Assembly (NCBI RefSeq): GCF_030160295.1
Contig: NZ_BSOB01000006.1
Location: 1 to 64,000, forward strand
DNA: 64,000 nucleotides
Source: Dyella acidisoli
Lineage (GTDB): Bacteria; Pseudomonadota; Gammaproteobacteria; Xanthomonadales; Rhodanobacteraceae
Direction: 5' to 3'
This document shows positions 3,694 to 17,977 of the stretch, piece after piece. The position numbers and the translations under genes are program-made. The notes under the pieces are model-generated. The model was not told the DNA's origin. It did no database searches and worked only from the letters and a program-made list of their open reading frames with translations. Position 1 is the stretch's first letter; each line of letters opens with the position of its first letter.

Positions 3694-3718
3694 TGTGATG
3701 ACTCCTGAGTGGTAGACG

Positions 3719-4936
3719 TCATGCCTTCCCAACGAACGCGCGCAACGCGGCGAGCAGGCGAACCAGACCTTCCGACAAATCATCGTCGGAGATGTTCAAA
3801 GGTGGTACGAAGCGCAACACATCCGGCCCCGCCTGTAGCACTAGCAGGCCATGTGTCGCCGCCACGTCAAGCACCTCGCCCGCCTTGCCTCGATAGCCCT
3901 CAGCGAGCACTGCGCCAAGCATCAATCCGCGCCCGCGCACTTCGGAAAACATGCCAAGCTCCGCGCCAATCGATCCAAGCGTTTCGCGCAAGGCGGCAGA
4001 TTGACGATGCACATTGGCCAGCAGTTCTGGCGACGATAATTTGCGCAAAGCAACGCGCGCGACGGCTGCCGCCATGGGATTGCCACCAAAGGTAGTGCCA
4101 TGCGCACCAAACTGCATGATCTGCGCGACTTTCGGACCGGCAAGCATCGCACCGATCGGGAAACCGCAACCCAGCGCCTTGGCGAGCGTCACGATGTCCG
4201 GTGTCACACCATCCTGCACGTGTGCGAACAATGTGCCAGTGCGGCCCATGCCGCATTGAATTTCATCCAATACCAACAGTGCCTCGTGCGCGTCGCACAA
4301 CTCGCGCACGCGCTTGAGAAAATCGGGCGCTGCCGGCAATACGCCACCTTCGCCTTGCACGGGCTCCAGCATGACAGCAGCGACATCGCCGGCAGCGAAG
4401 GCAGCCTCCAACGCGGCGACGTCGTTGAAATCGAGATAACGGAAACCACCGGGCAACGGCTCGTAGCCTTCCTGGTATTTCGGCTGCGCGGTAGCCGTGA
4501 CTGTGGCCAAAGTACGGCCATGGAACGAACCGCGGAACGTGATGATCACGCGCCGCTCCGGCGGCCTATCTTGCGCCGCCGCCCATTTGCGCACCAGCTT
4601 GATCGCCGCCTCATTCGCTTCCGCGCCGGAATTGCACAGGAATACACGCTCGGCGAAACCAGAGGCTTCCACCAGTTCTTGCGCCAAATGCAGCGGCGGC
4701 TCGGTATAGAACACGTTGCTGCTGTGCCAAAGCTTGTGCGCCTGCGCGGTCAACGCGGCAATCAGATCCGGATCCTGATGACCCAGCGCATTCACAGCAA
4801 TGCCAGCGCCGAAATCGATGTAGTCGCGTTGCTCGGTATCCCACACGCGCGCGCCTTTGCCTCGATCGAGCACTAGCTCGCGCGGCTTGTAAACAGGTAA
4901 CCAATAACGCTTGCCGAGATCGACGAGGGACGACAC
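3719..4936 (-). CDS. argD: Acetylornithine/succinyldiaminopimelate-type aminotransferase
   Basis: 405-aa class III PLP aminotransferase. PLP lysine is K253 in TLAKALGCGFPIGAML; the FFCNSGAEANEAAIK-like segment reads VFLCNSGAEANEAAIK, and LVLDEIQCGMGRTG holds the cofactor aspartate. The family converts N-acetylglutamate semialdehyde to N-acetylornithine in arginine synthesis and often also serves lysine synthesis. It lies 25 bases upstream of the glyoxalase-fold gene on the same strand and is divergent from the fap-like operon. Ornithine or GABA aminotransferase would be the main alternative. Confidence 0.88.
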   Translation of the reverse strand: MSSLVDLGKRYWLPVYKPRELVLDRGKGARVWDTEQRDYIDFGAGIAVNALGHQDPDLIAALTAQAHKLWHSSNVFYTEPPLHLAQELVEASGFAERVFLCNSGAEANEAAIKLVRKWAAAQDRPPERRVIITFRGSFHGRTLATVTATAQPKYQEGYEPLPGGFRYLDFNDVAALEAAFAAGDVAAVMLEPVQGEGGVLPAAPDFLKRVRELCDAHEALLVLDEIQCGMGRTGTLFAHVQDGVTPDIVTLAKALGCGFPIGAMLAGPKVAQIMQFGAHGTTFGGNPMAAAVARVALRKLSSPELLANVHRQSAALRETLGSIGAELGMFSEVRGRGLMLGAVLAEGYRGKAGEVLDVAATHGLLVLQAGPDVLRFVPPLNISDDDLSEGLVRLLAALRAFVGKA

Positions 4937-5092
4937 CGAAGACTCCTATGGTGAACATGCGTGACCCCACGCGTGGCCGCGGCCACGCCACGTGGAAGAA
5001 ACGCAAAAAAAGGGGAACCCGCATCCTAGCCAGCAAGCGGCGCCCTGCCAACATACTCCGGCGTTGTTTACCGTGATGCGATGTGTATCAGA

Positions 5093-5165
5093 GGTGTTAC
5101 ACCTGCTGAAAAAGCGCTTGGCTACGCCATTCGCCGCAATACGGACCGCGAACGCGCTGTAACAC
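5093..5165 (+). promoter_or_regulatory. Candidate upstream activator sites for the sigma-54 promoter
   Basis: An 11-bp palindrome GGTGTTACACC (5093-5103) and a second TGTAACA core (5159-5165, the reverse complement of the TGTTACA in the first) lie about 150 and 80 bases before the -24/-12 element. Their spacing is near 63 bases, about six helical turns. Enhancer-binding proteins normally bind such inverted repeats 80-200 bases upstream. Assignment to the regulator encoded at 10708-12051 is inference. Confidence 0.4.
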
Positions 5166-5210
5166 TGCTGCACCGGCTAGCAAACCTCCAAACTACCGCC
5201 TCCGTTCGCC

Positions 5211-5235
5211 AAGCCTTCATTTTTCAAGGCTTTTT
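5211..5235 (+). terminator. Terminator-like hairpin just before the sigma-54 promoter
   Basis: AAGCCTT (5211-5217) pairs with AAGGCTT (5226-5232) across an 8-base loop, and five T follow at 5231-5235. The stem is short and AT-containing. No plus-strand gene lies upstream because argD runs the other way, so it would either insulate the operon or end a short intergenic transcript. Confidence 0.35.
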
Positions 5236-5240
5236 GCTGA

Positions 5241-5256
5241 TGGCACGGGACTTGCC
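5241..5256 (+). promoter_or_regulatory. Sigma-54 (-24/-12) promoter of the fap-like operon
   Basis: TGGCACGGGACTTGCC matches the RpoN consensus TGGCACG-N4-TTGC at every fixed position, with the required GG and GC dinucleotides 10 bases apart. Initiation would fall near 5267, giving a leader of about 26 bases that carries the GGAGGAGGAG ribosome-binding site of the first gene. A sigma-54 enhancer-binding protein is encoded at the other end of the operon. Confidence 0.85.
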
Positions 5257-5292
5257 CTTAGTCCAGCGAAGGGGACATTGGAGGAGGAGCCC

Positions 5293-5832
5293 ATGGACGC
5301 CATGCGTCAGCACCAGTTGAATCGTCATGCACACATCGTTGTTGCCATCACCGGCGGCTGGTTGATGGCGCTGATGCCCATGCTGGCCTCCGCCGATGGC
5401 GCTCGTGTCGCACAGAAAGCCAAACCGGGCGAAATAGTGGTGACTCGCAACGTGGCCACGCGCCCGGCTGATCGATCGCCCACCGCACCGGGCATGGCGC
5501 TGATGGTCAGCGCGTCACCCAATCCCCAACTCGTCAATGGACTCACCGGTGCTAGTGGCCCCGGCGAAATCAGCGATGCGGAAATCGCCAGCCTCAATGC
5601 TGGCCGCATCACCGCAAGCATGCCCGGACAAAACAGCATGCAGCACGCACTCAATACGGCGCTTGGCACGAACATCGGCGGCAACAGCGCCGGCGCTGCA
5701 AGCAGCAATGGGGTAAGCAATACCTTGAGCGCTCCCGCCGGCGGCGGCGCTGTGGTGGATGGCACACGCAACATCAGCGACCAGGTGAGCAATGCCCTCT
5801 CGCAGATTCCTGTATTGGGCGCGGGTCACTAA
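5293..5832 (+). CDS. Exported protein, first gene of fap-like operon (FapA position)
   Basis: 179 aa. The ATG at 5293 directly follows a strong GGAGGAGGAG site; an in-frame TTG at 5278 is unlikely. A hydrophobic segment (IVVAITGGWLMALMPMLASA) forms a signal peptide cleaved near residue 35, predicting a periplasmic protein. The mature part is low in aromatic residues and rich in Ala, Gly, Asn and Ser, with GEISDAEIASLNAGRI and a C-terminal NISDQVSNALSQIPVLGA. It lacks the GVNQASG-type amyloid repeat of the next two genes. By position it corresponds to FapA, a periplasmic chaperone-like factor in Pseudomonas; the sequence similarity I can judge is weak, so this is inference. Confidence 0.75.
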   Translation: MDAMRQHQLNRHAHIVVAITGGWLMALMPMLASADGARVAQKAKPGEIVVTRNVATRPADRSPTAPGMALMVSASPNPQLVNGLTGASGPGEISDAEIASLNAGRITASMPGQNSMQHALNTALGTNIGGNSAGAASSNGVSNTLSAPAGGGAVVDGTRNISDQVSNALSQIPVLGAGH

Positions 5833-5842
5833 GGGGCGCGTC

Positions 5843-6502
5843 ATGAAACGGATGTCTTATCACTTGATGTTGTGCGCAGTGGGTGTCTCGCTTGTTGCAC
5901 CCCTATCAACGTCCACCTTCGCACAAACAGCGAGCGGCGACGCCTACGCCGCGATGCTCAGCTATCTGGATTCCAACACCATCAACGGACACGTCGCGCA
6001 AGGTGCGCAAGGCATCAGCGCGGTGAACACCGCCGCAGGCGATGCCAATCTGCAGGCAAACATGCACGCGTTCGCGCTGGGTAGCCATACGCAGGCTCTG
6101 CTCCTGGCGCGGCAACACACCTACAGCGATGCAGCAGTGGATGCATCGCTCCATGCCAGCGCCACCATCGGCGGTAATGCCTATGACAACGGGCGCGGCA
6201 TTGCATCGATCAATCAGGCCAGCGGCAACGGCAACACCCAGCTCAACGGGGTTGTCGCGCAGCTGGCCAGCCAAGGCATACGCGAGGCGACGGACGGCAC
6301 CCTGTCGGCCACTGTCTCTGCGTCGGCAGGGGGGCAACCATCGTCGAACTCACATGCACAGGCTGGCGGCACACGGAACGTGGCAGTCGATCCGTCGGCA
6401 ATGGAAGGGTTCAACGGTGTGATGCAACTCAACCAGGTCGCGGGATCCGGCAACGCATCGGACAACGTGCTGTTGATGTCCGTACCGGCTTCCTCGCATT
6501 GA
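5843..6502 (+). CDS. fapB: FapB-like minor amyloid subunit with three imperfect repeats
   Basis: 219 aa with a signal peptide (cleavage after STSTFA, about residue 27). Three repeats begin near residues 54, 117 and 189: GISAVNTAAGDANLQAN, GIASINQASGNGNTQLN and GVMQLNQVAGSGNASDN. They share the G-x-N-(Q/T)-x-(A/S)-G-x-x-N-x-(Q)-x-N pattern of Pseudomonas FapB/FapC repeats and are separated by Ala/Ser/Thr-rich linkers of about 45-55 residues. It sits second in the operon, as fapB does. The likely role is nucleator or minor component of an extracellular fibre. The ATG at 5843 follows aaggggcgcg; the third repeat is the most diverged. Confidence 0.78.
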   Translation: MKRMSYHLMLCAVGVSLVAPLSTSTFAQTASGDAYAAMLSYLDSNTINGHVAQGAQGISAVNTAAGDANLQANMHAFALGSHTQALLLARQHTYSDAAVDASLHASATIGGNAYDNGRGIASINQASGNGNTQLNGVVAQLASQGIREATDGTLSATVSASAGGQPSSNSHAQAGGTRNVAVDPSAMEGFNGVMQLNQVAGSGNASDNVLLMSVPASSH

Positions 6503-6536
6503 TAACTCGCAACACCCGTCATTTAGAGAGGACATC

Positions 6537-7403
6537 ATGAAAGCAAATCTGAGAAGGACTTTGATCGCACTGACCGTGTTGAGCGTGTTCGGCGTAGCAC
6601 AGGCCTCCGCGCAAACCGTGTCGATCAGCAAGGATGTGTCGCTCGACTCGAGTATCGACGTCAGCGGCTATATTGACCTTGACGGCGCCATCAAGATCGA
6701 CGCCGCGGCCCTCGCCTTGTCGAGCGCCGCGCAAGCATCGCTCACCAATATCGTGATCAACAATGGTCAAGTGGCTAACAGCTCCACCATCACCGATAAC
6801 GTCGGTGCCGGCGCATCGGGCAACGTGGGCGTGAACCAGGCCTCCGGCGACTACAACGCGCAAGGCAACCAGGCCGCAGTGGCCTCCGCAGGATCCTCGG
6901 GCACTGCGGATGCTGGGTTCACCTTCAACTGCGAACACAGCGGTGGTTGCGGCGGCGGCGATCCTCAGTCGCAAGCCGGCAGCATGGCCGACGCCGAAAC
7001 CTTCGCCGTGCAATCGGGCATGGGTAATCTCACGTACAACTACGGCACCACCAACAGCGCCACCATCAGCGGTAGTGCCTTCAGCAATGTGTCTGGCAAC
7101 CTGGGCGTGAACCAAGCCTCCGGCGACAACAACGAGCAGCTCAACCAGCTCGCCGCCGCCAGTGCCCAGAACGTCAGCTACGCCGTGGCCACCTCGACGC
7201 TGGAGCAGGAATGGTCCGGCAATGGCGTCGACAACGAACCGGGCGCGCTGAACTGCGCTTATTACCTGCAGCCGACCACCAACACGACCACGCTGTCGGG
7301 CTCGGTGATTTCCAACGCCAGCGGCAACGTCGGCATCAACCAGGCTGCCGGTACCGGCAACATGCAGAGCAACAGCCTCGCCATGGGTGTCTCCAACCCG
7401 TAA
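6537..7403 (+). CDS. fapC: FapC-like major functional-amyloid subunit with three repeats
   Basis: 288 aa, signal peptide ending AQASA (about residue 25). Three well-conserved repeats begin at residues 95, 187 and 263: GNVGVNQASGDYNAQGNQ, GNLGVNQASGDNNEQLNQ and GNVGINQAAGTGNMQSNS, separated by linkers of roughly 69 and 53 residues. Each repeat is preceded by a similar strand-forming segment (NNGQVANSSTITDN, TTNSATISGSAF, TNTTTLSGSVI). This is the architecture of FapC, the main fibre protein of Pseudomonas functional amyloid. The linkers hold three cysteines (NCEHSGGC, LNCAYY), whereas I recall a C-terminal CxxC in Pseudomonas FapC. It begins 34 bases after the FapB-like gene with an AGAGAGGA site. 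Confidence 0.85.
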   Translation: MKANLRRTLIALTVLSVFGVAQASAQTVSISKDVSLDSSIDVSGYIDLDGAIKIDAAALALSSAAQASLTNIVINNGQVANSSTITDNVGAGASGNVGVNQASGDYNAQGNQAAVASAGSSGTADAGFTFNCEHSGGCGGGDPQSQAGSMADAETFAVQSGMGNLTYNYGTTNSATISGSAFSNVSGNLGVNQASGDNNEQLNQLAAASAQNVSYAVATSTLEQEWSGNGVDNEPGALNCAYYLQPTTNTTTLSGSVISNASGNVGINQAAGTGNMQSNSLAMGVSNP

Positions 7404-7452
7404 TGGCGTAGTGGAAGGAACGCGCCGTCGCAAGACGGCAATGAGGGCGGTA

Positions 7453-7515
7453 ACCCGGCGACATGCCGCCGGGCACCATGTGGAAGCCCCCGGCCCGTCC
7501 CCTGCGGGTCGGGGG
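7453..7515 (+). other. Intercistronic stem-loops between fapC-like and fapD-like genes
   Basis: Two hairpins occupy the 145-base gap: an imperfect CCCGGCG/GCCGCCGGG one (7453-7473) and an 11-bp GC stem (7487-7497 with 7505-7515, one G-T pair). Only a weak T-rich stretch (tcttccc) follows, so this is more likely a partial attenuator or RNA-stabilising 3' end than a full terminator. It would let the main subunit be made in excess over the protease and export genes. No new promoter is evident here. Confidence 0.5.
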
Positions 7516-7548
7516 TCTTCCCTTCGCAAGGACATGGAGAGCTAAGAA

Positions 7549-8253
7549 GTGCGATCTCTATTTTTGACGCTGCTGATTTCGCTGGCGTTGACCACCATGT
7601 GCGCACGCGCGCATGCCGGTGACGTGAGCTTCGCCGGTGTGCTGCCCAATGGCGCGCAGTACAACGCGCACGTGGCCAGCATGCAGGAGCTGCGTTTTGC
7701 GAACATCGTTCGGCAGCACACCGATTACAGCTGCGGCGCCGCAGCGCTCGCGACGATTCTTCGCTACGGCTATCACCTGGACGTCGATGAGACAGTCATC
7801 ATCGACGGTATGTTGGGGCTGTCTGATTCCGCCACGGTGAAGCAGCGTGGATTCTCCATGCTCGACATCAAGCACTACATAGAAGCGCTTGGTATGCGCG
7901 GCCGCGGCTACCGCGTCGACATCGCGCGCCTTCGCACACTGCGCGTACCTGCCATCGTATTGATGGATATACGCGGGTACCGGCATTTCGTGGTGCTCAA
8001 GCAGGTGCACGACGATCAGGTAGAGCTGGCCGACTCGATTCTCGGCAATCGCACCATGAAGCTCGACGATTTCATGAAGGCGTGGCCGTCGCATGTGTTG
8101 TTCGTGGTGATCGGCAGTGACTTTGATCGCCACACCGTGTTGCTGCAGCCTGTAAGCAAACCCAGCGCACGCAATCTGTTCGCCCGCCAAGGTGGCGCCA
8201 TTACCGACGCGGAATTACTCGATTTCGGCTTCACGCACGCCGATCTGTTCTGA
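7549..8253 (+). CDS. fapD: FapD-like C39-family cysteine peptidase
   Basis: 234 aa with a signal peptide (MRSLFLTLLISLALTTMCARAHA). A C39 papain-like domain follows: catalytic Cys62 in QHTDYSCGAAALATIL, His146 in GYRHFVVLK and Asp162 in ELADSILGN. In Pseudomonas, FapD is the fourth operon gene and is needed for processing or export of fibre subunits; the order is the same here. The start is GTG at 7549 after gctaagaa. There are no ABC transporter domains, unlike bacteriocin-exporting C39 proteins, which supports a Fap role. Confidence 0.87.
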   Translation: MRSLFLTLLISLALTTMCARAHAGDVSFAGVLPNGAQYNAHVASMQELRFANIVRQHTDYSCGAAALATILRYGYHLDVDETVIIDGMLGLSDSATVKQRGFSMLDIKHYIEALGMRGRGYRVDIARLRTLRVPAIVLMDIRGYRHFVVLKQVHDDQVELADSILGNRTMKLDDFMKAWPSHVLFVVIGSDFDRHTVLLQPVSKPSARNLFARQGGAITDAELLDFGFTHADLF

Positions 8254-8263
8254 GGGCTTTGCC

Positions 8264-9211
8264 ATGGATAAGCATTCACTCCTCCTCACCGCGCTGGCGC
8301 TGGCGATTGCCTGTCGTTGCGGCACCACGTTGGCCAGCGAGGCCGACGACCACCACGTAGGACCCGGTATTCATGAAGTGGCGGATCCGGAACTCGCCGA
8401 CATGCGCGGCCGCTACGTCGTCGGCGACAACACGGTGTTGTGGTTCGGTGTGGAGATGATTTCCACATGGCAGACCAACAATGGACAGACATTGCGCGGC
8501 ACGCTGACGCTGAGCATGGATTTCAGCAAGAACGCAAACCAGCCGCAGGTGACATTCGTACCGACTGTCACCATCACCACGATCGGCAGTGCCGCGCCAA
8601 CATCCACGGCATCCAACGTGAGCCGCAGCGTGCAGAGCGGCGGGCTAGCCAACGTCGGTGGCCTCGTACAGAGTGTGCAGATTGCCGGCGATCACAATGC
8701 GGCTGGCAACGTCACCAGCCTGAGCATCCAAAACAACAGCGGCGCACGCGCCTCCAACACGCTGAGTCTGGCGCCATCCAATAGCGCCGGCGCCACGTCA
8801 TCTTCCACCATCGCGGTTACGGGGCCGATGGTGAACGTCAGCGGCTCGACGACCAACCTCTCGCCTAGCAATCCGTCATCAAGCAATGTAAGCAACACGA
8901 ACACGGTCGCCACGACAACCACAGGAACCAGCATCGCCGATGGCCGCGCCGCAAGCGCCGGCAACGCATCGGTCTCGTCCACGTATTCGAACGACAGTGC
9001 ACAGGTCAACCTGTCCGTCGCCGACCAGGGTTCGGTGTCGCAATGGGTCAGTCAGGGAAGCCTTGGCCAGACCATCGCGTTGACTGCCGACAGCCAGATC
9101 GTGACCAACCAGATGATCGTGAGCATGGTGACGCAGTCCGTCAACGCAACCACCTCGCAGCTCGCGCACAACCTCGCGCAATCGCTCAATCTCAGTCATT
9201 CCAACCGCTGA
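8264..9211 (+). CDS. FapE-like exported Ser/Thr/Asn-rich protein
   Basis: 315 aa, signal peptide ending near TTLAS (residue 25). The first mature 60 residues look folded and contain DPELADMRGRYVVGDNTVLWFG and MISTWQTNNGQ. The remaining 230 are low-complexity Ser/Thr/Asn/Val sequence with a repeat-like IAGDHNAAGN and a C-terminal block rich in Gln, Ser and Val. It is fifth in the operon, the fapE position; FapE is a minor fibre-associated protein in Pseudomonas. I recall an RGRY-type motif in FapE-like proteins but cannot verify it. The ATG at 8264 lies 10 bases after the FapD-like stop with a weak ribosome-binding site, suggesting coupling. Confidence 0.72.
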   Translation: MDKHSLLLTALALAIACRCGTTLASEADDHHVGPGIHEVADPELADMRGRYVVGDNTVLWFGVEMISTWQTNNGQTLRGTLTLSMDFSKNANQPQVTFVPTVTITTIGSAAPTSTASNVSRSVQSGGLANVGGLVQSVQIAGDHNAAGNVTSLSIQNNSGARASNTLSLAPSNSAGATSSSTIAVTGPMVNVSGSTTNLSPSNPSSSNVSNTNTVATTTTGTSIADGRAASAGNASVSSTYSNDSAQVNLSVADQGSVSQWVSQGSLGQTIALTADSQIVTNQMIVSMVTQSVNATTSQLAHNLAQSLNLSHSNR

Positions 9212-9259
9212 GCGCGTCCTAGCCCAACGCTCTCACAACATGCAGGGGAGACTATCGCC

Positions 9260-10606
9260 ATGCGCAAGACCATTCTCGCCACTGCGGTGGCATGCAGCCT
9301 TATTGGCTTTTTTGGAAGCCTCAGCGTGTTCGCGGAGGGAGCACCCACCGCTCCTGCTCCGCCCGCCACTGCACAAGATCAGGCGGACGTGCAGGAGCTC
9401 GTTCGCCAATTGCAGATGCTGAAGGTGAACTACGCGCAAGAGGTACGCAAGCTGCGCGCGTTGGATATGCAGGTGCAGGCACTTCAAGCGCGCCTGACCG
9501 GCAAGACCTCGACGAATCCAATCCCGGCGGAAGTCGCCAGCGCAGAAGCCACTTCAGGCGCTGCCAGCACCGCGAACGCCGGCTCGGTGGAAAGCTCGCA
9601 GGCAGCATCCACCACGCAAAGTGTGCAAGCCAGTACATCCGCCCAGACACGCAGCGTGCAGGACGTGCTTGAGCAGCAACAAAACGCCGTCTTCAATCGC
9701 AAATTCACGTTCGAAAACGACGTCACCTACAACCATTACGACCGCGCCGAACTTACGCTCAACGGCTTCCTGGCACTGAACTCAATCTTCCTCGGTAACA
9801 TCGCACTGGATCGAGTGAACTCCAACTCACTGACGTACGACATGATCGGGCGTTACGCGATCACGCCACGATTGAGTGCCAATCTCGACATTCCTTATGT
9901 GGGGCGCAGTACCGACTACCAGCAAGGCGGCGCCGGCGGGTCAGCGGCTGCCATCGACGAGCACACGTCGACCGGCAAGGGATTGGGTGACGTGAATTTC
10001 TCCGTCAACTACAAAATCCTGACCGAAGCGCCTGGTCGGCCCGATACGGTGCTGACGCTGGGTGTTACCGCACCGACCGGTCGCGCACCTTACGGCATCA
10101 AGTGGGTAAACGTTGCGGCCAATTCGCAATACGAACAGTTCGCCGTGCCGACGCGGCAACCCACCGGCAACGGCTTATGGCAAGCCACACTCGGCTCGTC
10201 GTTCGTGAAGACGATGGATCCAGCCATCGTGTTCGGCAACGTCGGCTATATCCATTCCTTCGAGCGTAACTTCAAGGACATCGATACCGATCCGCAGATC
10301 AGCACGCCGGGCAGTGTGCGCCTGGCCGATGTGTTCTACTTCGGCGCGGGTTTGGCCTTCGCCTTCAACGAGCGCAGCAGCTTGAGCATGTCCTTCAGCG
10401 ATCGCATCAATGGCAAGGACTCGCTGCGCGCAAGTGGTGGCCCGTGGACCAAGATCATAGGCAGTCAGGCGAATGCAGCGACATTGAACTTTGGCTTTAC
10501 CTACGCACTCAATCCGCACACCACATTCGTGACCGTGCTCGGCATGGGTATGACGCCGGATGCGCCGAATTTCACCTTGACGTTCAAGGTGCCGTACATG
10601 TTCTGA
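9260..10606 (+). CDS. fapF: FapF-like outer-membrane amyloid export pore
   Basis: 448 aa. A signal peptide ends at LSVFA (residue 25). A heptad-rich coiled coil follows (about residues 40-78, VQELVRQLQMLKVNYAQEVRKL in part), then an Ala/Ser/Thr linker (about 82-130), a short amphipathic segment, and a C-terminal beta-barrel of about 300 residues with alternating strands (LSANLDIPYVG, ADVFYFGAGLAF) ending in KVPYMF with the C-terminal Phe typical of outer-membrane proteins. This coiled coil-plug-barrel order is that of FapF, the trimeric channel that exports FapC. It is the last gene of the operon, after an AGGGGAG site. Confidence 0.87.
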   Translation: MRKTILATAVACSLIGFFGSLSVFAEGAPTAPAPPATAQDQADVQELVRQLQMLKVNYAQEVRKLRALDMQVQALQARLTGKTSTNPIPAEVASAEATSGAASTANAGSVESSQAASTTQSVQASTSAQTRSVQDVLEQQQNAVFNRKFTFENDVTYNHYDRAELTLNGFLALNSIFLGNIALDRVNSNSLTYDMIGRYAITPRLSANLDIPYVGRSTDYQQGGAGGSAAAIDEHTSTGKGLGDVNFSVNYKILTEAPGRPDTVLTLGVTAPTGRAPYGIKWVNVAANSQYEQFAVPTRQPTGNGLWQATLGSSFVKTMDPAIVFGNVGYIHSFERNFKDIDTDPQISTPGSVRLADVFYFGAGLAFAFNERSSLSMSFSDRINGKDSLRASGGPWTKIIGSQANAATLNFGFTYALNPHTTFVTVLGMGMTPDAPNFTLTFKVPYMF

Positions 10607-10622
10607 CGTTTGATCGCCGTGT

Positions 10623-10692
10623 GGGCTGGGGTGCAAACCCCAGCATCGTGATCCACGTGTGCATGACCATGCTGGGGTTTGCACCCCAGCCT
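10623..10692. repeat. Inverted pair of a short palindromic repeat between convergent genes
   Basis: Two inverted copies (10623-10646 and 10669-10692) match at 23 of 24 positions around a 22-base loop. Each copy is itself palindromic (CTGGGGT/ACCCCAG). It lies between the convergent fapF-like gene and the enhancer-binding-protein gene and probably terminates both. Related single copies occur at 28482-28508 and 61340-61365. Confidence 0.7.
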
Positions 10693-10707
10693 ACGAAGCC
10701 GTACACG

Positions 10708-12051
10708 TCAGTGCTGGTCTTCCAGCACCAACTGATGCTTCTTGCACAAGCGATAGATGGTCACCCGCGACACTTTCAAGCGCCGCGCACATTCGCTGAT
10801 ATTGAAACGCGTCTCGCGCAGACAGGCCATCACCGCATCACGTTCGGCCGAGGTGCGCGTCAAGCCGAGACTGGAATGTCCCGCACGCGGCGCCACCACA
10901 TCCTCCAGATCCAGATCGGCGACGCTGATCTGTGCACCTTCCGCCACCACCGCCGCGCGCTGCACGCGATTAAGCAATTCGCGCACGTTGCCGGGCCATG
11001 AGAAATCGCGCAGCGCCTTGCGTGCCAGTGCGCTGAAGGTACGCGCGTGGCTGTCGTGCTGTTTGCGGAAACTGTCGAGGAAAATCTGTGCAAGTTGCAG
11101 CACGTCGTCGGCACGCTCGCGCAAGGCAGGCATGCGCAGGCGCAGGACGTTGAGGCGATAGTACAGATCTTCGCGGAAGCGGCCTTGCGCCACCGCTTTT
11201 TCAAGATCCACATGTGTGGCCGCCAGTACGCGCACATCGAGCTTGATCGACTGCGTGGAACCAACACGTTCCAGCGTACCTTCCTGTAATAGCCGCAGCA
11301 GGCTGATTTGCGCATCCGGTGGGAGATCGCCGACTTCGTCCAGGAAAACCGTTCCACCCGCTGCCGCTTCGAAATGACCGATGCGGCGCGCATTCGCGCC
11401 GGTGAATGAACCGCGCTCATGGCCGAACAATTCCGATTGCACGAGATTGGCGGGTAATGCGCCGCAGTTGATTGCAGCAAAGGGGTGATCCCGTCGCTGC
11501 GACAGCTTGTGCAGTGCACGCGCCGCAACTTCCTTGCCGGTACCTGTTTCGCCGGTGATCAGCACCGGCAGTTCCACGGGTGCATATTTGCGCAGGCTCG
11601 CCACCACCGCCATCATCGCCGGACTGTTGCCGGTAATGCCTGGCACATCGGCATGCGCGGCGACTGGCGGAGTGGCGTCACCTGCGAGCTTGCCGAGTGT
11701 TTCGACCAGCCGCTGCATGTCGACCGGTGCGGTGAAAAAGTCGATGCTGGCGCGAAGTACGCGCTCCACTTCCGGTGCCTGCACGGAGGTATCGGTGGAC
11801 AGCAACGCTAACCATGGGATGCGCGGATGATCCGCCATGAGTATGGCCATGCTGCGCAAGGTTTCGATGTCGGCATGTCGCACATCCGCCATCGCGACCA
11901 CTGTATCGCCTCGTCGGATACCTACCCCGCCTCCTGGTGCGCTCGCATCCGCTACACGCGTATGCCAACCTGCCTGTGCCAGCCGCGCTCTTTCAATGCT
12001 TGTCGGCTCCCCGAACCACACTAAACAGCGGATCCACGTATCGCTAACCAT
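10708..12051 (-). CDS. Sigma-54 enhancer-binding protein, probable activator of the fap-like operon
   Basis: 447 aa. An N-terminal domain of about 130 residues resembles a degenerate receiver without a clear phospho-acceptor aspartate. A central AAA+ domain follows (about 140-375): Walker A GETGTGKE with K173, the sigma-54 contact loop GSFTGA at 214-219 (a variant of GAFTGA), FLDEVGDLP Walker B and FREDLYYRLNVLRL. A Fis-type helix-turn-helix closes the protein (NISECARRLKVSRVTIYRL). The layout resembles VpsR-like regulators, but the near-intact contact loop predicts true RpoN dependence. It converges on the operon, whose promoter is of sigma-54 type. The ATG at 12051 follows a GGAGGG site. 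Confidence 0.88.
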   Translation of the reverse strand: MVSDTWIRCLVWFGEPTSIERARLAQAGWHTRVADASAPGGGVGIRRGDTVVAMADVRHADIETLRSMAILMADHPRIPWLALLSTDTSVQAPEVERVLRASIDFFTAPVDMQRLVETLGKLAGDATPPVAAHADVPGITGNSPAMMAVVASLRKYAPVELPVLITGETGTGKEVAARALHKLSQRRDHPFAAINCGALPANLVQSELFGHERGSFTGANARRIGHFEAAAGGTVFLDEVGDLPPDAQISLLRLLQEGTLERVGSTQSIKLDVRVLAATHVDLEKAVAQGRFREDLYYRLNVLRLRMPALRERADDVLQLAQIFLDSFRKQHDSHARTFSALARKALRDFSWPGNVRELLNRVQRAAVVAEGAQISVADLDLEDVVAPRAGHSSLGLTRTSAERDAVMACLRETRFNISECARRLKVSRVTIYRLCKKHQLVLEDQH

Positions 12052-12309
12052 CGCAACGCCTCCCTCCAGGATGGCTGGCCCACGGTCCCCGCTACATCCC
12101 GTAGCAGGAGTTCGCCCCCGCGCCCGTGGCCGGCCGGCACCAAAAACTCGGCACCATTCACGGAATATACACCCGAATTTCCCGGGTAATCACTTTTTAA
12201 CCAAGTAAAACCCTCCTGCTACCCCAGCAATTCGGAGCGGCGCAGATGCATAGCTTAAGCGCCGAATGACGGCGGCCTGATGACAACCTCAGGCATGCTC
12301 TTGAATAGG

Positions 12310-13128
12310 TCAGTTCAGGAACAGATCGGGTAGTAATGTCTCGCCGAGCTTATAAGCATAGGTGTCGAAATCGTGTATCCCCGCCTCACGCAAGACATCC
12401 TCGTCGATAGCAAAGCGCCCTGTGCATTGCCTCGACGGTTGTGTCAGCAGCGCGTGCGCTGCGTCCGCGACGATCTCGGGACGACGGCATTGTTCGGGTT
12501 TCACGCCATCGATCATGGCAATAGCTGCCGTGGCAATGACTGTACGTGGCCATAAAGCATTCACCGCGATGCCCAGCGGTGCCAATTCCGCACTCATGCC
12601 GAGCACGCACAAGCTCATGCCGTACTTGGCGATGGTGTAGGCCGTATGCGGCGCAAACCATTTCGGATCGAGATCTGGCGGGGGCGAGAGCATCAGCACA
12701 TGCGGATTGCTCGCCTTTTTCAAATACGGCAAGCATGCTTGCGTCACCATGAAAGTACCGCGCGTGTTCACCTGATGCATGAGGTCAAAACGCTTCATCG
12801 GCGTGCCTTCGGTACCGGCAAGCCAGATTGCACTGGCGTTGTTGATCACGATATCGATGCCGCCGAAACGTTCCACCGCCTGGGCGACCGCCGCGTGCAC
12901 CTCTTCTTCCTCGCGGATGTCGACTTTCAATGCAAGCGCCTTGCCACCCGCCGCTTCCACTTCGGCCGCTGCCGTATAAATAGTGCCGGGAAGCTTCGGA
13001 TTCGGCACGCCGCTCTTTGCAGCGATAACAACGTTGGCCCCGTCGCGTGCAGCGCGCACTGCAATGGCAAGGCCAATGCCGCGCGATGCGCCGGTAATGA
13101 ACAGCGTTTTTCCGGCAAGATTGCTCAT
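12310..13128 (-). CDS. SDR-family oxidoreductase
   Basis: 272-aa Rossmann-fold short-chain dehydrogenase. The cofactor motif is TGASRGIG (residues 12-19), followed by DIVINNASAIWL, a catalytic-site region with S-PPPDLDP and YTIAKYGMS (YxxxK). The extended insertion and overall length resemble the HSDL2-like subgroup of SDRs. The substrate is unknown. The start codon directly abuts the edge of a 164-bp palindrome, which supplies the CGGAG ribosome-binding site. The LON-domain gene lies upstream on the same strand. Confidence 0.85.
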   Translation of the reverse strand: MSNLAGKTLFITGASRGIGLAIAVRAARDGANVVIAAKSGVPNPKLPGTIYTAAAEVEAAGGKALALKVDIREEEEVHAAVAQAVERFGGIDIVINNASAIWLAGTEGTPMKRFDLMHQVNTRGTFMVTQACLPYLKKASNPHVLMLSPPPDLDPKWFAPHTAYTIAKYGMSLCVLGMSAELAPLGIAVNALWPRTVIATAAIAMIDGVKPEQCRRPEIVADAAHALLTQPSRQCTGRFAIDEDVLREAGIHDFDTYAYKLGETLLPDLFLN

Positions 13129-13292
13129 ATGGATGCTCCGATCAATTTTGCGTAGGTGTCACCGGCCCTGCCTGTCCGCAGGCCACAGGGGCGTTGGTGA
13201 AGGCAGACTGGCCGTCTGTCGAGCCGACGGACCGAAGGCATGCGGACAGACAGGGCCGGTGATGCCTGCGAAGAATTGATCGGAGCATCCAT
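13129..13292. repeat. 164-bp long imperfect palindrome
   Basis: The outer 52-base arms (13129-13180 and 13241-13292) are inverted copies matching at 46 positions, and the symmetry continues weakly inward to a CAGAC/GTCTG centre at 13204-13218. It lies between the LON-domain gene and the SDR gene, both on the minus strand, so the transcript would fold into one long hairpin. The outer edge ends exactly before the SDR start codon. There is no coding capacity and no transposase; it may be a miniature palindromic element. Confidence 0.85.
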
Positions 13293-13299
13293 AAAGTCC

Positions 13300-13911
13300 T
13301 CAGGCTTTCTGAAAGCGCGGCAGGATATCGCGCAAAGTGGTTAGACGCAGCAATGGATCGGTCATCTCCAGCAGCTGCTGTTGTTCCTCGCGAGCCAACG
13401 GCAGCAATTCCGCCAGCCGAAAGCCCAGCCAACCGGCATCGTCATAAGAGGAACGCGGTGCATGCCGCCAGTGCGGTCCCATCGTTTCAATCAAACGCTC
13501 AAGGATGGTCTGCAGCAAGGCGAATTCCACCGGCACCGCTTGCGGCGTTTCGTCCGGCCACAGTTGCACGTCACCTCGCAGCAAGCCGTCCGAGCGTGCA
13601 CGCGTGCGCAATACGCGAAAGCGGCTGCCACCTTCGGCGGCGATACCTAGCAATCCGTCCTCGCGATGACTGAAATCGACGATGTGTGCCAGCGTACCGA
13701 TAGCAGCAGGTCGGGCCGGCACACCCACTTCCGCGCCATCCAGAATGAGGCAGACGCCGAACGCCGTGCCACTGCGCGTGCATTCGCGCACCAGGTCCAG
13801 GTATCGCGGTTCGAAGATGCGCAACTGCAACTGTCCGCCCGGATAGAGCACGGTGCCGAGGGGAAACAAAGGCACATCTAGGAAGGGTGATTGGGCCGCC
13901 ATATCCGACAT
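13300..13911 (-). CDS. LON substrate-binding-domain protein
   Basis: 203 aa with the N-terminal domain of Lon protease alone: VPLFPLGTVLYPGGQLQLRIFEPRY, then GVCLI and GTLAHIVDF, and a helical C-terminal part (ERLIETMG, LLEMTDPLLRLTTLRDILP). There is no ATPase or protease domain. Stand-alone proteins of this type are widespread in proteobacteria, and their role is not settled. Start choice is uncertain: ATG at 13911 gives the usual length, 13902 is possible, and neither has a strong ribosome-binding site. It is divergent from the ABC exporter. Confidence 0.8.
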   Translation of the reverse strand: MSDMAAQSPFLDVPLFPLGTVLYPGGQLQLRIFEPRYLDLVRECTRSGTAFGVCLILDGAEVGVPARPAAIGTLAHIVDFSHREDGLLGIAAEGGSRFRVLRTRARSDGLLRGDVQLWPDETPQAVPVEFALLQTILERLIETMGPHWRHAPRSSYDDAGWLGFRLAELLPLAREEQQQLLEMTDPLLRLTTLRDILPRFQKA

Positions 13912-13979
13912 CTTATCTACTGGACGTTGCACATCGCACACGGCAGAGTGCATGAAGTCCTCGAAGGAAGCCTCTGCGG

Positions 13980-14915
13980 ATGTCCGGCACCCAATTGGCC
14001 AGTCCCATGCCCCCTGTTTTGTCACCCGCACCGCACCCGGATGCGCCACCGGCCCTGCAGGTCCGTGGCCTGGATAAATCCTTCAAGAAACGCCAGGTGC
14101 TCAACGCGCTGGACTGGAGTGTGCCCAGTGGTCGCGTGGTCGGCTTGCTCGGTCGCAACGGCGCAGGCAAGACCACATTGCTGCGCTGCCTGCTCGGTCT
14201 CTCGCCGATCGATGGCGGCCATATCGATCTGTTCGGCGAGCCGATGCTGGAACCGGGCGGAGAACGCATGCATCGCATCGGTTTCGTGCCGCAGACCTTC
14301 GATCTGTTTCCGTGGATGAAGGTGCGCGCCTATCTCGATTTCACGGCGGCGTTCTATGCACGCTGGAATCCCGAACTGGTCGAACGACTGCTGACGAACT
14401 GGGAGCTGGACGTCAAGCAGAAGATCGGCGAACTGTCGCAAGGCCAGCGCCAGAAGCTGGCGATCGTGCGCGCCATCGCGCCCGATCCGGATCTGCTGGT
14501 GCTGGACGAACCCGTCGCCAGCCTCGACCCGCAAGCGCGCCGCGCTTTCATGGGCGAGCTGTTGGCGCTGATGCGCGCACCCGGCAAGACCGTGATTTTC
14601 TCCACGCACATCACCGCCGATCTCGAACGCGCCGATGCAGATATCTCGTTACTGCGCGAAGGTCGCATTCAATTCACGCGGCCGCTAGCCGAATTGCGCG
14701 CGCGTATGAAACGTGTAGTGCTCACCCGCACAGAAGGATGGACGCAGGCACCCACCGTTGCAGGTGCTCTGAAATCCCAGGTGCAAGGCGAGCAGGCTGT
14801 GTTGCTGGTCGAAGATCCCGTGGTGGAAAGCCTGCATTCGCTGGCTGCAAACGAACATGCTCATCTGCAGATCGAAACTCCTACGCTGGAAGATCTGTTC
14901 GTGGAGTTGGCATGA
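13980..14915 (+). CDS. ABC transporter ATP-binding protein
   Basis: 311 aa. Walker A GRNGAGKT (about residues 58-65), Q-loop FVPQTF, signature LSQGQ, Walker B LLVLDEPVASLD and H-loop STH. An extra C-terminal segment of about 90 residues (GWTQAPTVAGAL onward) is typical of drug- or lipid-type ABC-2 exporters. The proline-rich N-terminal 25 residues may not be translated if initiation is at the ATG at 14010. The permease gene overlaps its stop by 4 bases, so the two form one transporter; the substrate is unknown. Confidence 0.87.
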   Translation: MSGTQLASPMPPVLSPAPHPDAPPALQVRGLDKSFKKRQVLNALDWSVPSGRVVGLLGRNGAGKTTLLRCLLGLSPIDGGHIDLFGEPMLEPGGERMHRIGFVPQTFDLFPWMKVRAYLDFTAAFYARWNPELVERLLTNWELDVKQKIGELSQGQRQKLAIVRAIAPDPDLLVLDEPVASLDPQARRAFMGELLALMRAPGKTVIFSTHITADLERADADISLLREGRIQFTRPLAELRARMKRVVLTRTEGWTQAPTVAGALKSQVQGEQAVLLVEDPVVESLHSLAANEHAHLQIETPTLEDLFVELA

Positions 14916-16327
14916 GCGTCGCCTGGCAACTTTGGCTGCAATTGTTCAGACGCACACCGTTGCTGGTAGTGCTGGCCAATCTATTGCGTGCTGGGGCACT
15001 GTATTTCGCAGTGCAATGGCTACGTGGCGACGACGAAGATGTGATGATGGCCGCCACGCTGTTCGGTGTGGCAACGTGGATGTGGCACACCGGCCAGGGC
15101 TACAACCTGCGCGGCGTTTGCGTGCCCGAAAGCTTTCTGATGCCGCGTTTTCGCCGCCGGCTATTGGAATATGGCGCCATCGACATCGCATCGTGGGTAC
15201 TGCTGCCGCTGCTCGTCGCCGTCTTTGGCGGAGTACCGCATTTGCTGCTGGTCGCGTGCGGCCTCTTGGTCGTCGCCGCACTCGGAGTCACCATGGGCTG
15301 CAACCCGCGCAGCGGCATGCTGCTGTGGCCTATCTTCATCGTCCTGGGTTGGATGCCCTCGCTCGTCTCCACTTTTCTGAAAGAAGCGCTGCGTTCGCCA
15401 TTCACGCCGTGGCTGCTGGTGGCGATCGCGGCCTTGCTGCTGCGATTTAGCGTTGCACCGCTGCTGCGCATCGAAGATCGCGAAACAGAAACCTCGCCGC
15501 TGGAAAGCACCAGCCTCGGCCGCACACAAGCACGCAACGCGCCGGGCGAGCCGCGGCGCATGGGTATGTTCGGCAGACGTATCGCCGCGCTGTATGACCG
15601 TTTATCTCAGCGTGCACTACAGCGCGCACTTGCCGCCTATGCGCGCCATCCCACGTTGCAGCGACGCATGCTCCTGGTACGCAGGCTGCTGCTGCCGCAC
15701 GACAATCCCGAAGCGATTGCTTTGCGTATTGCCTTGGTCGCGGTGATCGTCTTCTTCTATTTCTTCGTATTGATGCATCGCCAGCATTTCCAGCCGGTGG
15801 CGGTCGGCGCGTACGCCATCATGCTCAGCATCTCGCGCTTTCCGCAGTTGAACGTCGGCATGGTACGCATGCGACCGAACATGGCGGATTTGTATCTCAC
15901 GCTTGCGCCCGAAACACGCGCCGAATATCAGCAAATCATCTCGGACGCGTTGCTCGTGCTGGTGCCGATCAGCGTGCTGACCGCGTTGACGTATACCGCG
16001 TTCGGTGCCGTGCTGGTGCATGCGCCAGATCCGCTGCACATGCTGTTCGTGGCGGCGGTGGTATCGCTGGCGGCCAGCCTGGCGGCGCTCGCCGTGCACC
16101 TGATCGGCCCGGAAGGCGCGACCGGCCGCACCATCGTCAACCTGGTGGTGGTGTTCGGCACGATGGCTGTGTACTGGGGCGGTTATTGGCTGGTAGGCGC
16201 GGCCGGCTATGCGTTCGGCGGCGGATTGCTTGCGCTGGTTGCGCTGGGTTTTGGCGTGGGTGTGTGGTTTGCCGCGCAGCGTGAATATGTGTCGCGTGCG
16301 CCGCGGTTCGATGCACCCATTGCGTAA
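14912..16327 (+). CDS. ABC transporter membrane protein (partner of the preceding ATPase)
   Basis: 471-aa polytopic membrane protein with about ten hydrophobic segments in two blocks (residues 20-185 and 270-455), separated by a charged cytoplasmic stretch (about 190-265). ATGA overlap with the ATPase gene implies translational coupling. It lacks the periplasmic domain of MacB- or FtsX-type permeases. I do not recognise a named family; the substrate cannot be inferred from the neighbours. Confidence 0.8.
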   Translation: MSVAWQLWLQLFRRTPLLVVLANLLRAGALYFAVQWLRGDDEDVMMAATLFGVATWMWHTGQGYNLRGVCVPESFLMPRFRRRLLEYGAIDIASWVLLPLLVAVFGGVPHLLLVACGLLVVAALGVTMGCNPRSGMLLWPIFIVLGWMPSLVSTFLKEALRSPFTPWLLVAIAALLLRFSVAPLLRIEDRETETSPLESTSLGRTQARNAPGEPRRMGMFGRRIAALYDRLSQRALQRALAAYARHPTLQRRMLLVRRLLLPHDNPEAIALRIALVAVIVFFYFFVLMHRQHFQPVAVGAYAIMLSISRFPQLNVGMVRMRPNMADLYLTLAPETRAEYQQIISDALLVLVPISVLTALTYTAFGAVLVHAPDPLHMLFVAAVVSLAASLAALAVHLIGPEGATGRTIVNLVVVFGTMAVYWGGYWLVGAAGYAFGGGLLALVALGFGVGVWFAAQREYVSRAPRFDAPIA

Positions 16328-16329
16328 CA

Positions 16330-16411
16330 AGGTTGGGTTAGCGCAGCGTAACCCAACAAAACCTCATCGAAGCGATCAGCATTGTTGGGTTAGGCTGCGC
16401 TAACCCAACCT
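16330..16411. repeat. REP-like inverted pair (gttgggtta type)
   Basis: Two 30-base copies, 16330-16359 and 16382-16411, are inverted and match at 29 positions. Each contains GTTGGGTTAG and its complement, so the unit is itself palindromic. It lies between convergent genes and touches the mpl stop codon. It probably works as a bidirectional terminator; the type looks like a dispersed REP element. Confidence 0.75.
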
Positions 16412-17765
16412 ATAGAGTGAGTGCTTCGACGAAACGGCGCGGTGCATTCTCGAAGCCGCCGTTGGACATGAATACCACGTGGTCGCCTGCACGCGTTTGA
16501 GCTTTCAGCGCAGCAAGCAGTTCGTCGACGGTTGGCGCCGTGCTGGCGCGACCGTGCAAGGCATCGGTCACGCGCCGGGCATCCCACGGCAACTCAGGGC
16601 GATGCAGGAACACCACCGCATCCGCATCACTCAGTGATGGTGCAAGCGCTTCGGCGTGGGCACCCAGACGCATGGAATTCGAGCGTGGTTCCAGCGCAAC
16701 CAGAATGCGCGCTTGACCCACCTTCGCACGCAGGCCTGCCAGCGTGGTGGCAATGGCGGTGGGGTGATGGGCGAAATCGTCGTAGACGCGTACGCCATCC
16801 ACTTCGCCTACCACCTCCATGCGGCGCTTTACGCTTTCGAACGTGGCGAAGGCCGGAAGCAAAGCGCGCGGATCGGCACCCGCTGCAGCCGCAGCCGCCA
16901 ACGCAGCCAACGCATTCATCACGCTGTGATCGCCAAGCAACGACCACTTGACCTCGCCGATCACTTCACCCTTGTACTGCACGGCAAAGTGCGAGCCGTC
17001 CGCCGCGATCAGCGCAGCCTGCCAATCGCCTTTGCCAATGCCGAAGGTTTCCACCGGTGTCCAGCAACCCATCGCCAGCACCTCGGCCAGATACGCATCA
17101 TGCGCGTTGACGATCAGCCGGCCATTGCCGGGCACGGTGCGCACCAGATGATGAAACTGGCGCTGGATTGCCGCGACGTCAGGAAAGATATCTGCGTGGT
17201 CGTATTCAAGATTGTTGAGGATGGCGATGCGCGGCCGGTAATGCACGAACTTGGAGCGCTTGTCGAAAAACGCGCTGTCATATTCGTCCGCTTCGATCAC
17301 GAAATGCTTGCCCTGCCCCAGCCTCGCGGAAATACCGAAGTTACCGGGCACGCCGCCGATCAGGAAACCTGGTGCAAGCCCTGCACCATCGAGCAGATGC
17401 GCAAGCAGACTGGTGGTCGTGGTCTTGCCGTGCGTACCGGCTACGGCCAACACTTCGCGCTCAGCCAGCAAACGCTCACCCAGCCACTGCGGGCCGGAGA
17501 CATAGCGCAGCCGCTGATCGAGCATGTATTCGACGGCTGGATTGCCACGCGTCATCGCATTGCCGACGACAACCAGGTCAGGTGCAGGCTGCAGATGTTC
17601 GACTTTGTAGCCTTGCATCAGCGCGATGCCGAGTGCTTCAAGCTGCGTGCTCATTGGCGGGTAGACGTTGGCATCGGAGCCTTCCACCGTTTCGCCAAGT
17701 TCGCGCGCCAAGGCGGCGACGCCGCCCATGAAGGTGCCGCAGATACCTAGGATGTGCAGACGCAT
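16410..17765 (-). CDS. mpl: UDP-N-acetylmuramate:L-alanyl-gamma-D-glutamyl-meso-DAP ligase
   Basis: 451 aa (E. coli Mpl has 457). It begins MRLHILGICGTFMGGVA and has the Mur-ligase ATP loop VAGTHGKTTTTSLL (about residue 110), the EADEYDSAFFDKRSK motif and YDDFAHHPTAI. In the cytosol it joins the recycled tripeptide to UDP-MurNAc during murein recycling. An in-frame GTG at 17792 is possible, but the family start is the ATG at 17765. Downstream it ends inside a REP-like pair; upstream lies a repeat-filled gap before adk. Confidence 0.94.
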   Translation of the reverse strand: MRLHILGICGTFMGGVAALARELGETVEGSDANVYPPMSTQLEALGIALMQGYKVEHLQPAPDLVVVGNAMTRGNPAVEYMLDQRLRYVSGPQWLGERLLAEREVLAVAGTHGKTTTTSLLAHLLDGAGLAPGFLIGGVPGNFGISARLGQGKHFVIEADEYDSAFFDKRSKFVHYRPRIAILNNLEYDHADIFPDVAAIQRQFHHLVRTVPGNGRLIVNAHDAYLAEVLAMGCWTPVETFGIGKGDWQAALIAADGSHFAVQYKGEVIGEVKWSLLGDHSVMNALAALAAAAAAGADPRALLPAFATFESVKRRMEVVGEVDGVRVYDDFAHHPTAIATTLAGLRAKVGQARILVALEPRSNSMRLGAHAEALAPSLSDADAVVFLHRPELPWDARRVTDALHGRASTAPTVDELLAALKAQTRAGDHVVFMSNGGFENAPRRFVEALTL

Positions 17766-17844
17766 GCGGTGTCCGTGTAGTTCAGGCTCCACCGAGGGAG
17801 CGCAGGAATCTCGGTGCTGTCGTAGCGACCGATTCTCGCCTGGA

Positions 17845-17924
17845 CGTCATTCCCGCGAAAGCGGGAATCCATCTTCGCTTTTCGCATCAGAGCAACATGG
17901 ATTCCCGCTTTCGCGGGAATGACG
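17845..17924. repeat. 80-bp composite palindromic element, copy 1
   Basis: Inverted 28-base arms (17845-17872 and 17897-17924), each itself a hairpin ATTCCCGC-gaaa-GCGGGAAT, flank a 24-base spacer. The same arrangement with a similar spacer recurs at 27476-27554, so the whole element is repeated and not only its arms. The core resembles the dRS3-like attccc/gggaat repeats of many proteobacteria. Confidence 0.8.
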
Positions 17925-17977
17925 GCGAGGAGTAGGCAAGCATCATGGTGAGACGTGCGGCCTATTACCTCAAAGGA

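Follow-up and report, generated by a model that had tools for sequence, protein, structure and literature searches.

Identification of a complete fap operon in Dyella acidisoli

The first 64,000 nucleotides of contig NZ_BSOB01000006.1 from Dyella acidisoli (hereafter, the window) contain six genes in the order fapA to fapF on the forward strand, followed by a reversed gene for a sigma-54 enhancer-binding protein. Judged from its sequence, the block at 5293–10606 is a real, complete and conserved fap operon with an activator in the position of brfA, a known kind of system, and a Fap functional-amyloid module is very probably its overall explanation. By analogy with studied systems, FapC would form an extracellular fibre. 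Within this module, the exported protein FapE is probably the substrate of the C39 cysteine peptidase FapD, as suggested by a bacteriocin-type leader motif that a sister system in the same genome carries in canonical form. The operon and the gene that closes it are laid out as follows, with predicted roles (+, forward strand; −, reverse strand):

5293–5832, +: fapA, 179 amino acids, exported protein in the chaperone position; NCBIfam chaperone_FapA, E = 8.3e-8 over residues 26–146 (weak)
5843–6502, +: fapB, 219 amino acids, minor fibre subunit; NCBIfam FapB, E = 6.1e-24
6537–7403, +: fapC, 288 amino acids, major fibre subunit; NCBIfam FapC, E = 6.3e-29
7549–8253, +: fapD, 234 amino acids, GTG start, periplasmic C39 cysteine peptidase; NCBIfam FapD, E = 3.2e-76; Pfam C39, E = 2.7e-23
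8264–9211, +: fapE, 315 amino acids, exported accessory or minor fibre protein; NCBIfam FapE, E = 2.8e-25
9260–10606, +: fapF, 448 amino acids, outer-membrane amyloid secretion pore with a C-terminal Phe; NCBIfam FapF, E = 4.5e-116
10708–12051, −: brfA-position gene, 447 amino acids, sigma-54 enhancer-binding protein with a VpsR-type N-domain, an AAA+ domain and a Fis helix-turn-helix (HTH), convergent with fapF

All six proteins were matched by NCBIfam Fap profiles, each by its own model and in operon order, in agreement with a first-pass annotation that had read them as a Fap-like set in the order of Pseudomonas fapABCDEF and had proposed a profile search; similarity was clear for FapB, FapC, FapD and FapF. 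The three repeats that this annotation assigned to each subunit were located near residues 58, 120 and 193 of FapB and near residues 96, 188 and 264 of FapC, which has no CxxC. The sequences of two solved FapC fibres, 9nqd and 9u4u, matched window FapC (E = 2.9e-14 and 4.6e-14, respectively). For the pore, the proposed resemblance to FapF held by sequence comparison, not by a folded model: solved FapF chains (5o65–5o68) aligned with window FapF through its last residue at E ~1e-87. The pore itself and its terminal Phe stood as described, and the coiled coil attributed to it appeared only as a weak profile match (CCDC53, E = 0.54). Operon order, the three imperfect N/Q/G repeats of each subunit, the FapD triad, the beta-domain match of FapF by sequence and the presence of FapA and FapE thus place the set among Fap systems. 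The distinct lineage that had been suggested is the Xanthomonadales fap branch, already named in 2013, when Dueholm and colleagues included Rhodanobacter and Stenotrophomonas among fap relatives in the cited text (PMC3792158).

A leader motif in FapE and the probable substrate of FapD

A 2017 report called the target of FapD unclear and, in the text cited, described the Fap proteins as being without canonical C39 sequences (PMC5557850); in 2018 the substrate was still described as yet to be determined. The same 2017 work reported that complete N-terminal processing in Pseudomonas sp. UK4 was seen for FapE alone, the N-terminus of which was missing in mass spectra, and that the FapD mutation C38A abolished FapC secretion in an E. 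coli assay (PMC5557850). Two features of the window bear on this question:

8378–8416, +: FapE leader motif VADPELADMRGR followed by Tyr, residues 39–51, positions −12 to +1; predicted FapD recognition site
8194–8250, +: FapD-only C-terminal tail GAITDAELLDFGFTHADLF

Soon after its apparent signal peptide, window FapE reads VADPELADMRGRY, and FapE proteins share the consensus [ILV]xDxELxxMRG[RK][YF]. The described consensus of C39 leaders is L(−12)xxxE(−8)L(−7)xxxxG(−2)G(−1), in which −4 is the position of a specificity residue (PMC6959990). FapE agrees with it at −12, −8, −7, −4 and −2 and differs at −1, where it carries Arg or Lys.

Conservation of the motif was followed in a set of 95 + 16 FapE reads, 106 of which were distinct by their last 120 residues. 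Matches below 60 bits (loci L166 and L169) were left out, L165 and L167 gave no FapE read, and removal of duplicates between collections was limited to reads with ATG as the chosen start. The core [LM]..[MIL]RG[RK][YFW], a search pattern that itself fixes the last two positions and the Gly at −2, was present in 108 of the 111 reads. Two of the misses (L043 and L095, one genome) were due to the chosen start, as the full frame holds the motif, and the third (L174) has a stop within the match. In a reading with full frames, 96 of 97 distinct reads contained the core. Among the 108 matched proteins, position −12 was Ile, Leu or Val in 107, −8 was Glu in 90, −7 was Leu in 99 and Met in 9, and −4 was Met in 101, Ile in 4 and Leu in 3. 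The distant read from L166, outside the set, reads IRGKF and agrees with the motif, and Aeromonas FapE, from a fap locus in a plasmid record, also carries it (LADGELAHLRGRY). The motif was absent from all FapA (79), FapB (96), FapC (96), FapD (103) and FapF (97) sequences examined. No description of the FapE site was found in the open-licence literature. Further along FapE, residues ~126–150 (window 8639–8713) hold a single stretch resembling a Fap repeat, GGLANVGGLVQSVQIAGDHNAAGN, whose G, Q and N columns are invariant or nearly so across FapE.

The catalytic triad that the first-pass annotation had read in FapD, C62, H146 and D162, was invariant in 56 aligned rows, and the oxyanion residue Q56 was nearly invariant in the same alignment. 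The AlphaFold2 model of FapD was good (mean predicted local distance difference test, pLDDT, 85.9), and its fold matched the peptidases PCAT1, ComA and LahT. A comparison with 20 sister-system peptidases, made in search of a pocket that could accept Arg, revealed FapD-specific columns; their placement around −1 was not achieved.

The C-terminal tail of FapD is conserved in 119 FapD rows and absent from the same 20 sister-system peptidases. A leader-like pattern was found in 108 of the 119 rows, or in 97 of 108 distinct sequences, and in the window the tail segment ITDAELLDF is similar to IPDAELNLM, the leader helix of FapE. The tail (ITDAELxDF) might mimic the leader helix and act as a built-in decoy. 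This idea is speculation, because the model leaves the tail undocked, with residues 222–234 below pLDDT 50, and lends no support to docking of the tail in the protein's own groove. The likeness of the two helix starts may be due to chance.

Taken together with the sister system described below, we consider it an even chance that FapD is a periplasmic leader peptidase with FapE as its dedicated substrate, so that Fap secretion would be gated by removal of a bacteriocin-type leader, its −1 Gly replaced by Arg or Lys, from a Sec-exported protein. The form of this reading that we favour, again at about even strength, is that FapD would cut FapE after the Arg/Lys and before the conserved Tyr/Phe.

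A sister system with canonical leaders

The second, weaker FapF match of the window genome lies on another contig (locus L032, 9701–14065) and belongs to a five-gene set: a Gly/Ser/Ala-rich protein, a small protein, a C39 peptidase, a FapE-like protein with the sequence LDAVRGGF, and a FapF-like pore. Neither the Gly-rich nor the FapE-like protein had a Pfam or NCBIfam match at E ≤ 1. We examined the lower-scoring FapF group at 20 loci together with the window genome's own, and all five genes were matched in 20 of these 21. In all 20 FapE-like proteins that include this region, the leader ended in GG with Leu at −7. The same was true of the small protein in 19 of 20 cases; the copy in the window genome has GS. 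When FapE was aligned with its sister homologue using hhalign, MRGR/Y was placed on xRGG/F (the slash marks the −1/+1 boundary) with a probability of 94.7 and E = 6e-8. The sister peptidases adjoin two proteins with standard leaders, and FapE is the homologue with Arg/Lys at −1.

All five sister genes were also found in Cupriavidus metallidurans and part of them on a Vibrio plasmid, both in plasmid records. Co-located fapD–fapF pairs in other phyla were noted earlier (PMC6173800). With GG leaders on two secreted proteins, the sister system could point to a wider class of leader-gated outer-membrane secretion, a part of the FapD leader-peptidase reading for which the balance is likewise level.

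Two further observations concern regulators near such genes. At L071, one of the weaker-group FapF-like genes adjoins a BrfA-type activator at the contig start, and the 9-kb stretch gave no FapB, FapC or FapD match. At L072 and L074, a different enhancer-binding protein gene adjoins the sister system; in the activator tree it groups, on long branches, with another activator of the window genome and not with the fap-linked ones.

Promoter and linked activator

The following elements lie upstream of fapA:

5241–5256, +: sigma-54 (−24/−12) promoter TGGCACGGGACTTGCC, TGGCACG-N4-TTGC
5084–5101, unstranded: candidate activator site 1, TGTATCA-N4-TGTTACA, with TGTTACA at 5095–5101, ~147 bp upstream of the −24 GG
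5158–5164, unstranded: candidate activator site 2, TGTAACA, ~84 bp upstream of the −24 GG

A sigma-54 promoter had been proposed ahead of the gene set, and an exact consensus indeed stands at 5241–5255. TGGCACGN4TTGC has this single exact match in the 64-kb window, where 0.15 are expected, and 12 of 100 shuffles contained one. Of 2000 186-nt pieces drawn at random from the window, 8 held an 11/11 match and 64 a match of at least 9/11. By comparison, 91 of 106 fap loci had a match of at least 9/11 just upstream of the first fap gene. These 106 loci remained after thinning by identity over the 60 bp that precede the first gene and after exclusion of loci that had too short an upstream region or no FapA or FapB match. 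The window genome encodes RpoN. An inverted repeat, AAGCCTT-N8-AAGGCTT, lies at 5211–5232, directly upstream of the −24 element; by eye, it is not perfect in nine other promoters of the genus.

TGTWACA occurs only twice in the window, at 5095 and 5158, with 2.9 copies expected in all. In a 10-row promoter alignment from the same genus, which also bears on site 2, site 1 was retained in most rows. Within 250 bp before the promoter, TGTWACA was found at 66 of 106 fap loci; in 200 shuffles the mean was 2 and the highest count 7. Its spacing from the promoter in the window is a usual distance for activator sites. We regard TGTWACA as a candidate binding site of the activator.

The gene closing the set had been annotated as an RpoN enhancer-binding protein, and its profile matches agree: Pfam PF20161 (5.7e-10), PF00158 (1.5e-69, AAA+) and HTH_8 (3.8e-8, Fis HTH). 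It has a Walker motif, GETGTGKE, at 167 and GSFTGA at 214. The VpsR structure 7v2b matched its N-domain at E = 4.6e-6, and it was the sole VpsR-domain protein found in the window genome. A linked regulator is therefore present as proposed, but the combination of promoter and adjacent activator was already known from Pseudomonas fluorescens PF07. There, Guo and colleagues (2022) mapped the −24/−12 promoter of fapA by rapid amplification of cDNA 5′ ends (5′-RACE), and brfA is the adjacent reversed gene whose removal lowers fap expression (PMC9207406). PF07 BrfA is reported to bind and respond to cyclic di-GMP (c-di-GMP) (PMC13101488). A 2018 review on P. aeruginosa states, in the passage cited, that the fap operon encodes no regulatory proteins (PMC6173800).

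What appears new here is the extent of the pairing of fap with a BrfA-type activator outside Pseudomonas, for which no description was found in the open-licence literature. Within the stretch examined, the activator accompanied fap at 33 of the 38 loci from the family; the count was 69 of 79 among named loci and 15 of 16 at class level, where a contig end cuts one locus. Some species recur between the three sets, and related species are not independent. It was downstream of and convergent with fapF at 28 of the 38 family loci and 62 of the 79 named loci. Several of the loci that lack it are located at the end of a contig. The VpsR domain was present in six of eight distant fap-linked activators tested, Aeromonas included.

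Conservation of the block

Among named genomes, the seven FapD genes closest to that of the window (L091–L097) comprise six labelled Dyella and one from a metagenome-assembled genome labelled Eremiobacteraeota. At 25 of 38 family fap loci the block lies, as in the window, between an argD-like gene and a short-chain dehydrogenase/reductase (SDR) gene. In one genome (L045, ~3718–18350), fapABCDEF and the activator occur twice in tandem, and the second copy has a 10/11 sigma-54 match. The conserved flanks and a tandem copy that includes the activator speak for an old, vertically kept module. The block is thus not dispersed in relatives, a comparison that the first-pass annotation had put forward as a check. 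At a distant fap locus (L171), a FapC-type gene precedes a FapB-type gene by best profile match.

Alternative explanations

Several observations weigh against the interpretations given above, and three alternatives can be set beside them. None of the six window proteins reached the curated NCBIfam equivalog cut-offs, and because all six scores fall below them, the window Fap proteins are divergent family members. The FapF cut-off was passed by none of the 197 genomes searched in the family, and such cut-offs, set for the naming of proteins, may fit a narrower group. The AlphaFold2 model of FapC was poor (pLDDT 47.6) and was not relied on; at E ≤ 10 its fold matched just two PDB entries, both of them solved FapC fibres (E = 0.084 and 0.4). 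The fibre, its expression, activator binding and cleavage are predictions from genes and sequence. The block might be read as a Fil-type or other secretion system that combines a C39 peptidase with a FapF-like pore and whose product is not Fap amyloid, as FapD and FapF belong to wider families in the account cited (PMC3792158) and the sister system of the same genome has no FapB or FapC that we could find. The probability of this is close to negligible. The FapF profile gave 388 bits against 57 for FilC, and FapD gave 255 against 110 for FilB, scores on which a Fil or generic C39/FapF identity was rejected; the FapA, FapB, FapC and FapE profiles match as well, and the sister system has much lower scores (FapF 148 and FapD 141 bits), its FapE-like and Gly-rich proteins matching no NCBIfam model. 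The activator, for its part, might serve other genes and owe its place beside fap to history. Three fap loci had no activator in the stretch (L065 and L067, with ~5 kb on either side, and L173, also without FapA–C matches), none of them explained by a contig end, and fap-linked activators stand at various places, either downstream and convergent or upstream. Upstream regions also varied: 15 of 106 had no sigma-54 match, all but one of them at distant loci, and 40 of 106 had no TGTWACA. In a tree of non-Pseudomonas activators (88 of 111 rows after removal of near-copies; the fourth other activator of the window genome, L191, had no open frame in its stretch), the fap-linked rows clustered but did not form one clean clade (3 changes), and orthology with Pseudomonas BrfA would rest on position, domains and this tree. 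A merely historical neighbour is nonetheless very improbable: the adjacency recurs across families and orders, tandem duplication copied the activator along with the operon, the promoter and TGTWACA sites accompany fap, and removal of brfA lowers fap in P. fluorescens (PMC9207406).

The main rival to cleavage of FapE is that its leader serves as an uncut docking or retention signal, where FapD would act as a chaperone and would cut FapF or nothing. Residue −1 was Arg in 102 and Lys in 6 of the 108 matched FapE proteins, never the Gly, Ala or Ser expected there, and the distant read from L169, outside the set, has Met (IRGMY). The endings described for C39 leaders are GG, GA and GS, and the peptidase cleft is described as very narrow where the cut is made (PMC6363468, PMC6959990), a poor fit for Arg or Lys. 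FapD might only dock at the leader, or cut elsewhere. Some C39-like domains only tether their substrates, and GG/GA motifs stand ahead of the Pseudomonas FapF barrel (PMC5557850, PMC5135000); FapF has also been proposed as a FapD target (PMC5557850). Three order searches (3, 3 and 1 genomes) returned neither Pseudomonas FapE nor BrfA, and the comparison of FapE leaders covers genera other than Pseudomonas. Against docking alone stand the requirement for the catalytic Cys of FapD in FapC secretion in E. coli and the missing N-terminus of UK4 FapE (PMC5557850), together with the invariance of the FapD catalytic residues in 56 rows. In the sister protein the equivalent position still has a cleavable GG, and window FapF has two GA pairs but not a single GG within its first 160 residues. 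We regard the docking alternative as a substantial possibility, though not a probable one, and favour FapE as a cleaved substrate of FapD at the strength given above.

Proposed mechanism and comparison with known systems

Drawing on the studied Pseudomonas systems, we propose that rising c-di-GMP would lead the activator to bind upstream and open the RpoN promoter, after which Sec would export all six Fap proteins and FapD would act on a periplasmic precursor. FapB, FapC and FapE would exit through a FapF trimer, and the imperfect repeats of FapC would stack to form a surface amyloid binding the biofilm together. Two steps come from comparison: FapD would recognize FapE through the bacteriocin-type leader [ILV](−12)xDxE(−8)L(−7)xxM(−4)RG(−2)[RK](−1), and cleavage would fall before the conserved Tyr/Phe.

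The window thus contributes a further fap operon, though one that is complete and well anchored, from a soil-dwelling group within the Xanthomonadales. Because the pairing with a VpsR-domain activator spreads well beyond Pseudomonas, c-di-GMP control of Fap amyloid may be old and not a Pseudomonas habit. The main value lies in FapE and the sister system: the question of the FapD substrate gains a precise, testable site, the sister system keeps the canonical version of it, and together they render the question directly testable.

Among known proteins, FapD shares its modelled fold with the C39 double-glycine leader peptidases PCAT1, ComA and LahT, but it stands alone, begins with an N-terminal signal-like sequence and has an extra conserved C-terminal tail. 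The sister system and the window operon have in common a C39 peptidase, a FapE homologue and a FapF-like pore in the same order; the sister system differs in its Gly-rich and small secreted proteins, its lack of a FapB or FapC match and its canonical GG leaders. The activator resembles Vibrio cholerae VpsR in its VpsR-type N-terminal domain and AAA+ domain (match over residues 24–382). It retains the GSFTGA and Walker motifs of sigma-54 activators, from which VpsR departs.

The closest counterpart of the whole block is the fapABCDEF operon of Pseudomonas (UK4, PAO1), with which it shares gene order, all six families, three repeats in both FapB and FapC, the C39 triad and a FapF barrel that runs to the last Phe. 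It differs in scores below the equivalog cut-offs, in a FapA of weak similarity and in a FapC without the CxxC that Pseudomonas FapC is said to carry (PMC5135000). As in P. fluorescens PF07, a reversed gene downstream of fapF encodes a sigma-54-type activator of the Fis family and a −24/−12 promoter precedes fapA; the cited text describes the spread of BrfA across Pseudomonas (PMC9207406, PMC13101488), whereas here the arrangement is seen in Xanthomonadales, Aeromonas and other groups.

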